From Odiellus spinosus (taxonomy: Eukaryota; Arthropoda; Arachnida; Opiliones; Phalangiidae): a DNA stretch of 64,000 nt. The stretch spans positions 124,001 through 188,000 of the forward strand of contig CAWUCO010000235.1 in the NCBI GenBank assembly GCA_963920705.1, in the 5' to 3' direction. Every line of letters starts with the position of its first letter. Positions within the stretch are counted from its first letter, which is position 1. A model generated the notes under the pieces. That model was not told where the DNA came from. It saw only the letters and a program-made list of their open reading frames with translations, and did no database searches. Both the position numbers and the translations under genes were made by a program. Below are positions 15,867-41,309 of the stretch, piece after piece.

Positions 15867-16002
15867 CTTCTTTCTTCTCCGGAAGGAAACGCTTTTACAC
15901 GCTCTTTTATAATCCGGAGCCATCGTGTTTTCGCGAACTTTTTAATATCACGGATGATGACGGGGATTTCCTTCGGGCTGGGCTTTATCGACGCAAAATA
16001 GG
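15867..16002 (-). CDS. Possible upstream exon of the minus-strand gene at 12.7-14 kb
   Basis: After GCTCGTAG| the frame reads YFASIKPSPKEIPVIIRDIK then KFAKTRWLRIIKERVKAFPS and GEER. It ends AG|GTATCC in phase 2, exactly the phase needed by the exon at 14050. The composition is basic and protein-like. The donor is weak, and the same frame stays open to 15770, so this could instead be one exon of another gene or a chance ORF. Confidence 0.25.
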
Positions 16003-16639
16003 CTACGAGCAATACGTGTTCTTTAACTTACTACTAGCCGTCAAAACGATCATCCTTTTCTTGTTTGCGAAAATCTCTCCGAAGAGCTGGCATCTTTTTT
16101 TAATGTTGTATTTTTTATTCTCTCAAACCCGTTGCAAATTGGTTTAGAGTGAGATTCTGCTTCTCGCGGCGCACTTCGAAATAAATTGACGCAATATATT
16201 TTGTATTGCTCCGGGAGCAGTTAAAGTGGTCCAAAGAAAAACGCCATTGCTATAAATAATCGAGTTCTGATACGTTATACCGTAACTGAATTACTGAACG
16301 GAAAACGAGTAATCTATTGGTAAATTGGTGTAACGTATAACGAGTATTCTTACGTAAAAAGACCAAGAAATTTGTTTTGAAAATGGCTAAAACTTCATTA
16401 TTTGTTATACCGCGTGTCATTTCAAGGCAGTCTCCAAATTTATATTACTGGTTCGAAATATCAATAATAAAACCAATTCAAAATTAATAAAAAGAAATCT
16501 CGATATTACGCCTTCTTTATGAGATGTGCGACACTCCTACAAATCTTGTATAGTCTAATGTTTGAAATTTTCAAATCGTTCAAATCCTCACGCGGCAAAC
16601 CATTCAAATTCCTAGTAAATCGTGAAATCCTGGTATATC

Positions 16640-17100
16640 TTCCAAATACCTACCAAATATCTACCAAAACCCTTCCAAATATCTTCCAAAACCCAACCAA
16701 ATATCTTTCAAAAGCCTTCCAAATATCTTTCAAAAGCCTTCCAAATATCTTTCAAAAGCCTTCCAAATATCTTTCAAAAGCCTTCCAAATATCTTTCAAA
16801 AGCCTTCCAAATACCTTTCAAAAGCCTTCCAAATATCTTTCAAAAGCCTTCCAAATATCTTTCAAAAGCCTTCCAAATATCTTTCAAAAGCCTTCCAAAT
16901 ATCTTTCAAAAGCCTTCCAAATATCTTTCAAAAGTCTTCCAAATATCTTTCAAAAGCCTTCCAAATATCTTTCAAAAGCCTTCCAAATATCTTTCAAAAG
17001 CCTTCCAAATATCTTTCAAAGCCTTCCAAATATCTTTCAAAAGCCTTCCAAATATCTTTCAAAAGCCTTCCAAATATCTTCCAAAATCCTTAAATATCTA
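16640..17100. repeat. 22-base minisatellite, first type
   Basis: Unit CCTTCCAAATATCTTTCAAA plus AG, about 20 copies. ORFs of 167-244 codons across it come from period and composition alone. Confidence 0.88.
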
Positions 17101-17289
17101 CCAAATATCCTCCAAAACCCTTTAAAATATCCTCCCAAACCCTTCCAAATATCCTCCAAAACCCTAACCCAATCTGCCAAAACCCTTCTAAATATATTTC
17201 AAAAGCCTTCCAAATATCTTCCAAAATCGTTAAATATCTTCCAAAATCCTTAAATATCTACCAAAATCCTTAAATATCTACCAAAATCC

Positions 17290-17950
17290 TTAAATATCTA
17301 CCAAATATCCTCCCAAACTATTCCAAATATCCTCCCAAACCCTTCCAAATATCCTCCCAAACCCTTCCAAATATCATCACAAACCCTTCCAAATATCCTC
17401 ATAAACCCTTCCAAATATCCTCACAAACCCTTCCAAATATCCTCACAAACCCTTCCAAATATCCTCACAAACCCTTCCAAATATCCTCACAAACCCTTCC
17501 AATTAAATATCCTCACAAACCCTTCCAAATATCCTCACAAACCCTTCCAAATATCCTCACAAACCCTTCCAAATATCCTCACAAACCCTTCCAAATATCC
17601 TCACAAACCCTGCAAATATCCTCACAAACCCTTCCAAATATCCTCACAAACCCTTCCAAATACCCTCACAAACCCTTCCAAATATCCTCACAAACCCTTC
17701 CAAATATCCTCACAAACCCTTCCAAATATCCTCACAAACCCTTCCAAATATCCTCACAAACCCTTCCAAATATCCTCCCAAACCCTTCCAAATATCCTCC
17801 CAAACCCTTCCAAATATCCTCAAAAACCCTTCCAAATATCCTCCCAAACCCTTCCAAATATCCTCACAAACCCTTCCAAATATCCTCACAAACCCTTCCA
17901 AATCTTCCCAAACCCTTCCAAATATCCTCCCAAATCCTTCCAAATATCCT
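17290..17950. repeat. 22-base minisatellite, second type
   Basis: Unit CCCTTCCAAATATCCTCACA plus AA, about 29 copies. It shares the CCTTCCAAATATC core with the preceding array, from which it is separated by mixed units (17100-17290). Confidence 0.88.
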
Positions 17951-18170
17951 CCAAAACCCTTCCAAATCTTCCAAAACCCTTCTAAATCATTCAAAACCCT
18001 TTCAAATCTTCCAAAACCCTTTCAAATCTTCCAAAACCCTTTCAAATCTTCCAAAACCCTTTCAAATCTTCCAAAACCCTTTCAAATATTGAAAAACCCT
18101 TTCAAATCTTCCAAAACCATTTCAAATATTGAAAAACCCTTTCAAATCTTCCAAAACCCTTTCAAATCCT
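17950..18170. repeat. 20-base minisatellite, third type of the same lineage
   Basis: Unit AACCCTTTCAAATCTTCCAA, about 10 copies, a shortened derivative of the 22-base units with TATC lost. Confidence 0.85.
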
Positions 18171-33628: not shown

Positions 33629-33798
33629 GAGAAAAGCCCCACGTTTGCGACGTCTGCGGTAAGGGTTTCAGCACGTCGAGTTCTTTGAACACGCACCGAA
33701 GAATCCATTCCGGAGAAAAACCGCACCAGTGCCACGTTTGCGGGAAAAGGTTCACTGCCAGTTCAAACCTGTACTACCACAGAATGACGCATAGCAAG
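33629..33798 (+). CDS. Zinc-finger gene, exon with fingers 2 and 3
   Basis: The acceptor is ATCTACAG|. The exon starts with GA, completing the Gly of the previous linker (G-EKPH). It encodes two full fingers: [21 protein letters not shown] and [21 protein letters not shown], both with the C-x2-C-x12-H-x3-H pattern. The linker is SGEKPH. The exon ends ...HSK, with donor AAG|GTTAGC in phase 0. That donor is weaker than the GTAAGT donors elsewhere in the gene. A 29-base minisatellite (32790-33510) ends about 120 bases before the exon. Confidence 0.95.
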
Positions 33799-34405: not shown

Positions 34406-35081
34406 TGACGTTTCGGAGAATTGGTCGCGCGTTTAGGCAGTATAATTTTGAAATACAAACTATAACACACAAAAACGAGATCATTTATAATATCAGGAAG
34501 AAAGAAGGGAGAAGCAGGAGGACCCAGCAAACACGAAATATCCCCATGACATTCAGGAAATATCCATGTAGGATATTGGAAACGTCCTCATGATATCCAA
34601 ATAATCAAGAATGTCCAACCTTGGATGTTCTGAGGGTAACCAAATGTCACAGTTATCTATATTCCTATAACGTTCCAACAATATCCTTAAAGAGATTCGT
34701 CGAATATTCCATAGATATACTCATTATGTTCCAAACGTCTTAATTTGATTCACGTAATATTCCATGAACATCCGTTCAAGGTAATTGAAAATATTCTAAG
34801 AACATCCTAGAAACATTCTGGGTAGAGCCAAATGATATTCACACGAGATGCTTAGAATGATGTTCGTATATCATGCACTAGCTGCTAATTAAAGGTATAC
34901 ATTCAAATTTGTGTACGTACGTACACAATTTTAAACATAGCCCTTCCGCTTAATTTTTAAATTTAGTCCAATAAGGCTGGTATTGCAATTAAATAGTTTT
35001 AATAACCTTAAGTTTTTACAAAACTAAGTTAATTAAGAGAGAAAAAAATTGTTCCTAAATTTAAAATCATATAGACGCCCG

Positions 35082-35786
35082 TCATATTTTCTGTTTCTTA
35101 GCCGCAGTCAATTCTTTTGATTTTATTCTATCAGAAGCATGAGTGAACCAGGACTTGATATTTTTTTCAATATCAGCTATAGTTGATTCTTTAAAGCTCT
35201 TCAAGCCTCTGACAGATTCTGTTTTGATTGTTAGAAAGAAAGCAATTAAACAACAAATAAAATCTAAAGTTGCCTATAAATATTGGGAAACAGAAATTAA
35301 ATTTAAAAGTTACTATTAACTTGCCAATTATTATTTTCATAAGTCTTAGGTTGCTTAAAGGCCTTCCCAACTGTATTCTCTTGCCAAATTATATTGCGGT
35401 CTATTAAAACGAGTAAAAAGTAAAATTAAATTTTTAGCCAATTGGCAAACGTAAATTAAATTTTAAAACTATAATACGTACATTCGCTGATGGAAATTGT
35501 TCCCATTACATTTTTGTTTGTAGCTTCACCTAAATTTACAATTTCATTATATTAAGTTCTAGATTTAATTTCATTTGGTGCTCATGCAGCTCAAACTCAG
35601 TGGAAAATTTTTAATATAAGAATGAAATTAATATTACTTACTTTGGGTAGTCGAAGGCAATTTTGTCAGATAATTATTGTTTTGAGTTAAACGACTATTC
35701 AAATTCCGTGAGATATTTAGAGAGCTTGATAAAATTGTGGTACCAATAGGCTTATTTGATGTATCTCTTTCCCTTGAAGAGACCAT
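35082..35786 (-). CDS. Small four-exon antisense gene of unknown function, 138 residues
   Basis: Coding exons in transcription order: 35786-35642, 35529-35482, 35400-35314 and 35218-35082. The donors are GTAAGT, GTACGT and GTAACT, and every acceptor ends in AG. Three successive phase-1 junctions keep one frame of 138 codons to a TGA. The start used is the in-frame ATG of the second transcribed exon (MVSSRERDTSNKPIG). The N-terminal half is Ser/Thr/Asn-rich. The C-terminal half is Lys-rich and likely helical (ADIEKNIKSWFTHASDRIKS), ending KKQKI. The introns are 81-112 bases. ATTAAA lies about 80 bases past the stop. I recognise no family. The gene sits in intron 3 of the zinc-finger gene, on the opposite strand, inside an inverted-repeat element, so it may be transposon cargo or a captured host gene. 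Confidence 0.65.
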
Positions 35787-35941
35787 ACTCTTGTTTTTGT
35801 CAGCATTAGAAGATATTTTCGCATTATGTAGGTCTAAAAGTATAAATTTAATTTTAGCTTAAATTTCAAACTAAAAAATTAAAATTTATGACTTTTGAAT
35901 TAGGTAGCGCGATTAAAAATGAATAATAAAAAATGTTTTAC

Positions 35942-35995
35942 CTGAATTTCCTTATTCATGGATTCCAATTAACCTTAACGTGAAGATCCAAACAC
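35942..35995 (-). other. Probable 5' non-coding exon of the small antisense gene
   Basis: Reading the minus strand, AATTCAG|GTAAAA provides a donor 108 bases before the acceptor of the first coding exon. The exon contains an ATG (MNKEIQ), but after splicing that frame ends early, so I treat it as leader with a short upstream ORF. The upper boundary is arbitrary. The CG-richer stretch at 36050-36230 is the likely promoter area. Confidence 0.35.
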
Positions 35996-36949
35996 GTTAA
36001 GAACCGATAATTTAATACCGTTACCGTAGCCGATTTGAGAAATTATCTAATAAGAACGCGTTTTAAAAGATGGCGTCGAATAAAGAAACGTGCATTTACA
36101 AAAGCAAGATCAAGACTGCTAGTAGCTAGCTCGGGAAGACGACTAAGAGAGACTGAGCGTCTGGAGACAGCGTTGCCAGATAAGAAAATGAAAACTAAGA
36201 GCCAGGGCTGAACATGACTGCGAGCATTTCGAAATTGGGCTTTGGATAAAATTCGAAAATTATTGAAATATAGTACAGCCTTACATATATATTGTAATTT
36301 CATTAAAATATAGCACATGACAAAAGCTATTAACAAAATTCCGTCTTCGAAAGTTTTCAGAGAGAGAAAATGGCCCACTAGCGCCATTCTTTTTCTTGAC
36401 GTGTATATAATATATATATATAAATATATAATAATATATTTATCCGCGCCCGGCCGTTTAAAAAAATTTAAAAAACAAAACGATTTTTGGATATCAAATG
36501 GACATCTCCGGTACATTACATTTTGGATGTTAGAAGTGCCGAATAGGATGGATTTTTTGGGTATTCCAGAGATATTCCAGTAATATCCACTCTGTACCGG
36601 ATTATGTAGGGAGGTTTGGGCTAGAATGGAATATCTCTGGGATGTTTAGTGTTTGCTGGGGAGGTATTGAGAGTTTGGGCCTTTGACTGTACTAAAGCGA
36701 TTACACACTTATCTTTAAAATTCCTGCTTTGGCCATTGCTAAAATAATTACGCGTAATCCGTAATTGGTGCACAGTGAATCCGAGAGTGATTAGCTCTTC
36801 GTCCGCAACTGCCCATTGCATTCCATAACTGCGCATAATACAAAGTGCATGTGTCTTTCTCTGTATTACGCGACACATAGTACAATTAAGCAAGAACTCC
36901 ACGCCTCAACACCTATCAATTATTTATAAATATCTTATTGGCCCCGATC

Positions 36950-37356
36950 TTAAAGGGAAACTTGGAGCAAAAAATGGAACAGCCTAAAAACGTATTTGAG
37001 AGTTTTCAAACAATTATTGGGCACGTTTTTGGTGTTTAAAATTAATTTCTAAAGTTTGGTAAAATTTGAATGAAGTGAATATAAATTCTGGCCAATCACA
37101 TTATTTCAGCCTTCAACAGCGCTTGTAATGTCCTAACATTAAAAGAATAGGCCGGCGTTTCATGGCCAAGCTCTTGGGCATCAAACGTTGGCCTATATTT
37201 ATATTTACTTTCATAGAAATTTTAAGAAATTTTTGAAATTAATTTAAACACCAAAAACGTGTCGAAAAATTGTTTTGAAAATTCTCGAATACATTTTTTG
37301 ATTCCTAAAATAAATTTAAAAAGCTGTTCCATTCTAAGCTCCAAGTTTCCCTTTAA
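36950..37356. mobile_element. Family C miniature element (copy 2), complete
   Basis: TTAA|AGGGAAACTTGGAGC on the left and AGCTCCAAGTTTCCCT|TTAA on the right, with inverted arms of about 130 bases each containing CACCAAAAACGTGTC and its inverse. This is the best-preserved copy of the family, with exact TTAA flanks. Confidence 0.75.
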
Positions 37357-37400
37357 ACTTACATTGCCGACTAGAGTGCGAAAAAATACATATTTGATAA

Positions 37401-37534
37401 TACCCTCTTCAGACGATGCGTAATTAGCATGTTTAATCCGATTTAACCGAGGTTTATATAAGCTTTTCAGTTCAATAAACCCAAGGTTAAATCGGATTCA
37501 ACCTCGGTTAAATACGCCTCGTCTGAAGAGGGTA
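37401..37534. mobile_element. Miniature element family A (copy 3)
   Basis: Inverted ends TACCCTCTTCAGACGATGCG and CGCCTCGTCTGAAGAGGGTA, about 134 bases, flanked by TAA/TTA. The interior is rich in TTAACCGAGG motifs. Confidence 0.75.
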
Positions 37535-37997
37535 TTACCTAGGGTACGAACCGGCTGTGCTTAAAGAAAACAAGACTCGTCTCCTCTTTCCTTAATCCCT
37601 CCCATGGAAACTGGCGCGCACTCACAAAAAACAGACAAATATTATTCCTTCATTCCTGACTTTAAATAGTTTAAAATGAAACAAAAAAGGTGCTCAAAAT
37701 CATAATACGGCGCTATCCCTTTAGTCTCCAATAAAAGTGGAGTAAAAAAATCCTTTTCGGTACCAGAAACGAAGAACAAGAACTCGAAAGATAAAGCTTT
37801 AAAACGACACGGGTCCCGACAAGTCTGCGAGTATATCTCCAAAGACATATATACCATTTCTTTAAAAAAAATGTTCGAAACCCAAGATATCAGGGGTCAT
37901 GGGGATATTTCGGGTTCGTAGTGCCATTTTTCATAGAACTCTATGAATCGATAACAAAAAAAATGCCTCAAATTTGTGGACTAACTTCATTATCTAT

Positions 37998-41143: not shown

Positions 41144-41309
41144 GAAAAACCGCATAAATGCAGTTTGTGTTCCAAATCGTTTCCCACACCGGGAGATCTT
41201 AAAAGTCACATGTACGTTCACAACGGCTCTTGGCCATTCAAATGTCATATTTGCAGTCGGGGATTCAGCAAACAAACCAATTTGAAAAATCATCTATTTC
41301 TACATACAG
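41144..41309 (+). CDS. Zinc-finger gene, exon with fingers 4 and 5
   Basis: The acceptor is ATCTTGCAG| in phase 0. The donor CAG|GTAATG follows the first base of a Gly codon. The exon begins EKPHKC, so the linker from finger 3 reads SKEKPH. It encodes CSLCSKSFPTPGDLKSHMYV-H and CHICSRGFSKQTNLKNHLFL-H, both regular C2H2 fingers. The linker between them, HNGSWPFKC, departs from TGEKP by replacing EK with SW, which in this family often changes how adjacent fingers pack on DNA. This is the middle of the array. Confidence 0.95.

Follow-up and report, generated by a model that had tools for sequence, protein, structure and literature searches.

Positions 34523-36660 of the window (the whole 64,000-nucleotide stretch of Odiellus spinosus DNA analysed here) are occupied by a 2138-bp element which, with a probability of roughly 0.92, is a non-autonomous TRC-type (animal CACTA/EnSpm) transposon, an internal-deletion derivative of a two-gene element like that at locus L042, moved by a transposase from elsewhere in the genome. 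The spliced minus-strand gene that a first-pass annotation had placed in its interior is most likely a decaying, broken remnant of the second gene of the transposon itself, as judged by comparison with its relatives. This remnant, the disruption of the frame in all ten copies outside the near-identical group and the outcome of the shuffle control argue for a non-autonomous TRC element mobilized in trans. On its own the window element is an ordinary defective transposon, which shows that a CACTA-type family of animals has spread recently.

Structure of the element

The termini CCCAGCAAACAC and GTGTTTGCTGGG lie exactly at positions 34523 and 36660, as the first-pass annotation had it, and the 22-base terminal inverted repeats at 34523-34544 (plus strand) and 36639-36660 (minus strand, read from the sequence and from the comparison of the arms) match at 20 of 22 bases, the first 12 being perfect. 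Arms of 32 bases (34523-34554 and 36629-36660) are 81 % complementary. The dinucleotide GA flanks the element on the left (34521-34522) and on the right (36661-36662). At no more than one mismatch the 11-base terminus was found in two places of the window only, both of them element ends; since 14 of 100 shuffles contained as many occurrences, the terminus by itself is little proof, and the proof is provided by the copies elsewhere.

The subterminal arrays of GATATTCC/GGAATATC-type motifs described earlier were confirmed: with one mismatch allowed, six motifs were counted in the left 330 bp (34523-34852) and four in the right 180 bp (36481-36660), and neither count was reached in any of 500 dinucleotide shuffles. 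The middle 1628 bp contained no such motif at the same stringency. No transposase was seen inside the window copy, again in agreement with the earlier description. C2H2 fingers are encoded on the plus strand both upstream (33646-33792) and downstream (41159-41305) of the element, which makes its location in an intron of a zinc-finger gene plausible.

Copies and target sites

The 2138-bp element was used as the query in a search of its own genome (443,074,358 bases, 443 Mb, in 286 contigs). At least seven full-length places at about 100 % identity were found, including the window copy, each 2138 bp long and with 0-5 differences. Ten further two-ended copies of 2216-2582 bp (2.2-2.6 kb) were collected. 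Seven of them form a group of 2567-2582 bp with 0-2 differences from each other and a nested 345-bp inverted-repeat insertion; the remaining three measure 2216, 2234 and 2394 bp. The two large groups are approximately 2 % apart, and the near-identity within each of them indicates that an active source existed recently. Each end of the window copy carries the terminus CCCAGCAAACAC, as do the ends of the 16 other full-length copies if one mismatch is allowed. All copy numbers are lower bounds because the genome search scores the best candidates only, and the set of 17 omits L025 (one end missing), L026-L028, the places on C107, C33, C264 and C231, C11:9420701 and short matches.

An identical dinucleotide stands on both sides of all 17 full-length copies: TA in seven, AC in three, AT in two, and GA, TC, TT, CT and AA in one each. 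The flanks of each copy were joined minus one dinucleotide and the resulting 20-mer was sought in the surrounding tandem array, where an empty site survives for seven of the 17 copies. Since the empty sites are recreated in the tandem arrays, the 2-bp duplication is direct evidence of insertion. Termini and interior are common to 17 full-length copies at different sites, which bears out the proposal of a non-autonomous transposon made from the window sequence, together with the multi-locus check suggested for it. Seven of the 17 insertions are located within tandem arrays as against 15.9 % tandem repeat in the window, which is perhaps unrepresentative of the genome (binomial p 0.012); a preference for satellite arrays is possible.

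Relatives encoding a transposase

The 11-base terminus was found in the genome 69 times in forward and 75 times in reverse orientation, compared with 42 and 30 for the control. Opposed pairs of the terminus, among the matches listed, delimit L042 (7747 bp), L041 (6981 bp) and four other loci. L042 has the same 12-bp termini as the window element, a 2-bp duplication AA and a stop-free frame of 718 codons, which gave no Pfam match at E 1. The frame matches 64 places of the genome among the matches listed, and two of these, C16:14651996 (E 5e-31) and C118:193273, overlap places that score above the Transposase_21 cut-off. L058, also matched by the L042 frame, reaches 27.1 bits for DUF4218 (cut-off 27); in all, two more distant relatives match this domain, one just above and one just below the cut-off. 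DUF4218 accompanies CACTA transposases. Through these intermediates the L042 transposase may be assigned, indirectly, to the Transposase_21 type. The only stop-free match above 60 % identity among those listed is L042 itself, the query; open frames are also present in several transposase lineages at 35-41 % identity to it. L044, one of the six further CCCAGCAAACA-ended elements, lacks a matching 2-bp duplication. L043-L046 form another family, about 3.1 kb long (L046: 5.9 kb), with subterminal repeats of the GATATC type and an identical 11-base terminus; no transposase frame was seen in these elements.

The genome searches revealed no complete element with ends as near to those of the window copy as the ends of its sisters. 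Two candidates for the direct parent were discarded: C11:9420701 has only the first 61 bases in common and no right end within 3 kb, and L060 shares the terminus but has a stop in the transposase frame and a right end that matches few places. Five places (L026, L027 and L028 on C282 and C134, as well as places on C107 and C33) contain the left 563 bases only, at 90-91 % identity, and end at the position of the stop of the second gene. No transposase or second-gene match was detected in L026-L028 (best E 0.64); these three have the flank ...TTTACATG in common, which suggests a single insertion that was multiplied when its region was duplicated.

The second gene of the relatives

Downstream of the transposase L042 carries a second gene, predicted to comprise nine exons with eight GT-AG introns (joined by eye) and to encode a protein of 459 amino acids, residues 331-410 of which match DUF4806 (E 5.3e-8; 33.5 bits with a cut-off of 25). 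A second-gene match at E ≤ 1 was obtained for 7 of 14 loci, equivalent to 6 of 12 different places, the match-free places including five with only 1.5 kb of flank covered. In five of the six places the match lies downstream of the transposase match, L041 being the exception. At C9:509631 and C1:8829486 it follows the transposase match in the same orientation at a distance of about 4 kb, so the arrangement is seen in seven places when these two are added to the five. The DUF4806 profile, run directly against the genome, gave nothing at E 0.01 and was silent on the control genomes too; the domain spans two exons. In the literature covered, with Repbase and subscription journals outside it, no report tying DUF4806 to TRC/EnSpm elements was found.

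The product of the DUF4806 gene is a specific candidate for a protein that recognises the subterminal repeats. It is decidedly unlikely, as a more far-reaching proposal, that the DUF4806 protein plays the part of TnpA in animal TRC elements, binding the GATATTCC arrays and working with the transposase, and that the burst of seven copies arose partly because a C-terminal fragment of the trimmed frame interfered with or biased the mobilisation of related elements. We know of no homology between TnpA and DUF4806 proteins. The second gene is also a possible reason for the many DUF4806 genes in some genomes, as in the Hydra counts in the accessible part of PMC7642931.

The spliced frame in the interior

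The first-pass annotation described a four-exon gene of 138 codons on the minus strand. Such a frame can be written, the closest four-exon GT-AG model having its exons at 35786-35642, 35529-35482, 35400-35314 and 35218-35082, but its length is within the range of shuffled sequence and it is supported by homology, in its own frame, in the last exon only (stop-free stretch 35082-35273). In this exon 35088-35219 shares 70 % identity, in frame, with residues 412-455 of the protein predicted from the second gene of L042 (tblastn). Residues 399-411 are matched in a different frame and weakly (E 0.11), more clearly in sister copies, where the pieces were scored jointly, and residues 1-398 gave no convincing tblastn match in the window copy. 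The stretch 35321-35400 is what is left of the 3' portion of the exon that encodes DUF4806 (L042 exon 8), with the homologous residues split over two frames; the third exon of the model reads it in the third frame and fits neither homologous piece. The 48-base exon-like stretch at 35482-35529, between an acceptor and a donor, has the length and phase of L042 exon 6, to which it was matched by eye, the tblastn value being E 2.3 only and in the sister copy L008. For the first exon (35642-35786, MVSSRERD...) no homologue was found by sequence.

Over the last two exons of the second gene the DNA of L042 and L008 is about 74-76 % identical. According to the alignment the window copy has lost more coding bases in the DUF4806-coding exon than its sisters, and L024 retains more of the second gene, namely part of the preceding exon and more of the DUF4806-coding exon. 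An intact DUF4806 domain in one frame is absent from the window remnant, which is frame-split with most of the domain gone; the last exon alone did not match DUF4806.

Four-exon GT-AG models ending on the stop of the 138-codon model yield 851 different proteins. When the element was shuffled by dinucleotides and three introns at most were allowed, 50 of 60 shuffles contained a spliced frame of 138 codons or more (median 168). The longest spliced frame of the real minus strand runs to 303 codons, a length reached by none of the 60 shuffles (maximum 239); its start, close to minus-strand base 145, falls within the stop-free region 36043-36645 and not at the start of the model, to which this frame is therefore irrelevant. 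That region, a 200-codon stop-free stretch on the minus strand at the right end, is interrupted or shifted in L008 and L016.

When the model exons were projected on the 17 copies, the frame was open in the seven near-identical ones and carried 10-21 stops or was lost in all ten others. The last exon, intact in the seven, contains a stop in L008 and L018. Groups with a broken frame have spread no less than the open group, and mobility therefore does not depend on the frame. In four comparisons the model exons were less divergent than the rest of the element, although not significantly (p 0.21-0.46); for L008, for instance, there were 4/465 differences in the model exons and 27/1624 elsewhere (p 0.28). 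An AT-rich block (element bases 1880-1925) was left out of these counts, and its inclusion strengthened the contrast, e.g. to 4/465 against 38/1670. The lower divergence points weakly to constraint. A working gene was rejected as the default reading of the 138-codon frame on the frame comparison, the lesions in ten of ten sister copies and the shuffle control.

The first-pass annotation had offered two origins for this gene. As to an accessory protein of the transposon family itself, the ancestral element did have a spliced accessory gene, but the window copy has it in a truncated and frame-broken form, and the 138-codon model does not read the homologous exon in its frame. A shortened accessory protein could nonetheless still be produced by the element from its minus strand, out of what remains of the last exon of the second gene, acting for example as a competitor or repressor of transposition, for which the KP product of P elements is a precedent. 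The frame is open in all seven near-identical copies, with the last exon intact in them and stopped in L008 and L018, and truncated copies of SmTRC1 are transcribed and spliced into short messages without the transposase domain, as stated in the accessible part of PMC1636069. These seven copies, however, are nearly identical and so count as a single event, and the ten others multiplied with the frame broken; most of the DUF4806 coding sequence is gone and the preceding exon is frame-broken, the 138 codons are inside the shuffle range, and the constraint is not significant. Continued production of such a protein is thus unlikely.

Capture of a host gene fragment, the second origin, is hardly tenable. 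Introns are present in the interior, and plant CACTA elements capture gene fragments, both of which count in favour of capture; the interior nevertheless is homologous to the second gene of transposons that share these termini, the two agreeing in orientation and in the end of the element at which they lie, and in seven places the second-gene match lies downstream of a transposase match in the same orientation. The interior is what remains of the second gene found in related 7-kb transposons. A genome search with the exon proteins returned only these copies, transposon relatives and weak matches, some near transposase matches, and among them was no single-copy host gene that came closer than the second gene of L042 to the exons of the window.

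Affiliation and proposed origin of the element

The CCC-type terminal repeat, the 2-bp duplication, the subterminal arrays and the two-gene 7-kb relatives agree with those of TRC elements. An origin in another superfamily with similar-looking ends (P, hAT, piggyBac, Tc1/mariner) is very improbable, since TA, as in Tc1/mariner, is duplicated at 7 of 17 sites but the remaining ten duplicate GA, AC, TC, TT, AT, CT or AA, the duplication has a length of 2 and not of 8 or TTAA, and a frame related to Transposase_21 is present in relatives that share the termini.

Although the first-pass annotation knew of no described system matching the element, it is a non-autonomous TRC-type element, a known kind of system, and fits the animal CACTA/EnSpm elements as presented in the accessible parts of PMC1636069 and PMC4298943. 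TRC elements are known from Schistosoma, Aedes and Tribolium (DeMarco et al. 2006, PMC1636069) and from Hydra (PMC4298943), and the hallmarks given in these texts are a CCC core, a 2-bp duplication and Transposase_21. CCC-core terminal inverted repeats and the 2-bp duplication were found here; the window copy, like any non-autonomous derivative, lacks the Transposase_21-type transposase, which was found indirectly in relatives with the same termini, from the L042 frame to C16:14651996.

In the accessible part of PMC1636069, SmTRC1 and other TRC elements resemble the present family in the CCC core of the terminal repeat (Aedes CCCAGTCAAC), the 2-bp duplication, a Transposase_21-type transposase in full-length members, spliced second products and truncated copies, of 2.3 kb there. 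The terminal repeat, in contrast, is 54 there and 12 perfect bases (32 at 81 %) here, the window copy is without a transposase, and no conserved second protein domain appears in that part of PMC1636069, whereas the second gene of the relative contains DUF4806. The spliced short products of TRC elements were likened to TnpA by its authors. Spongebob of Hydra was assigned to TRC (PMC4298943, accessible part); Spongebob/EnSpm-4N1_HM (Hydra, insects) has the terminus CCCAGCCAACATTGAC, similar to CCCAGCAAACAC in a comparison of the ends only, and likewise a 2-bp duplication and non-autonomous copies in insects. The exact 11-base terminus, searched jointly with other terms, was absent among the literature matches listed. 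Plant CACTA elements differ from the window element in having a CACTA core and a 3-bp duplication. Maize En/Spm, with its TnpA and TnpD, with which a comparison is drawn in the accessible part of PMC1636069, is similar in the two-product architecture, the subterminal repeats and the end-keeping (dSpm-like) deletion derivatives.

The derivation of the window element from a two-gene L042-like ancestor would have involved an internal deletion in which the transposase gene and most of the DUF4806 second gene were lost and the ends, i.e. terminal repeats and subterminal motif arrays, were retained. A TRC-type transposase from another element would recognise and bind these ends, excise the element and insert it again, with hardly any restriction as to the site and with duplication of 2 bp, and recent rounds of such cut and paste could have generated the near-identical copies. 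We infer from the above that the transposase acts in trans and that the subterminal motifs are protein-binding sites, presumably of the transposase or of the DUF4806 protein.

Other repeats nested in and near the element

The 345-bp inverted-repeat element nested in the 2578-bp subfamily (L018 2252-2596, equivalent to element bases 1252-1596) has the ends CATGGGCCAAGAAACGTGATACCAGGACAT, identical in the first 30 bases, and a 7-bp duplication TTTGATG. It was found in at least 40 places of at least 300 bases at 88-100 % identity, 33 of them outside the 2578-bp subfamily, and is a recently spread MITE. Just downstream of the window element two inverted repeats, at 36950-37356 (arms of 34 nt, 91 %) and 37398-37537 (29 nt, 93 %), resemble MITE-like or foldback elements. 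The window also contains many other minisatellites and, at 16635-18167, a C-rich tandem array of about 1.5 kb with 22/44-bp units, which accounts for the GC skew of -0.65 at 16001-18000.
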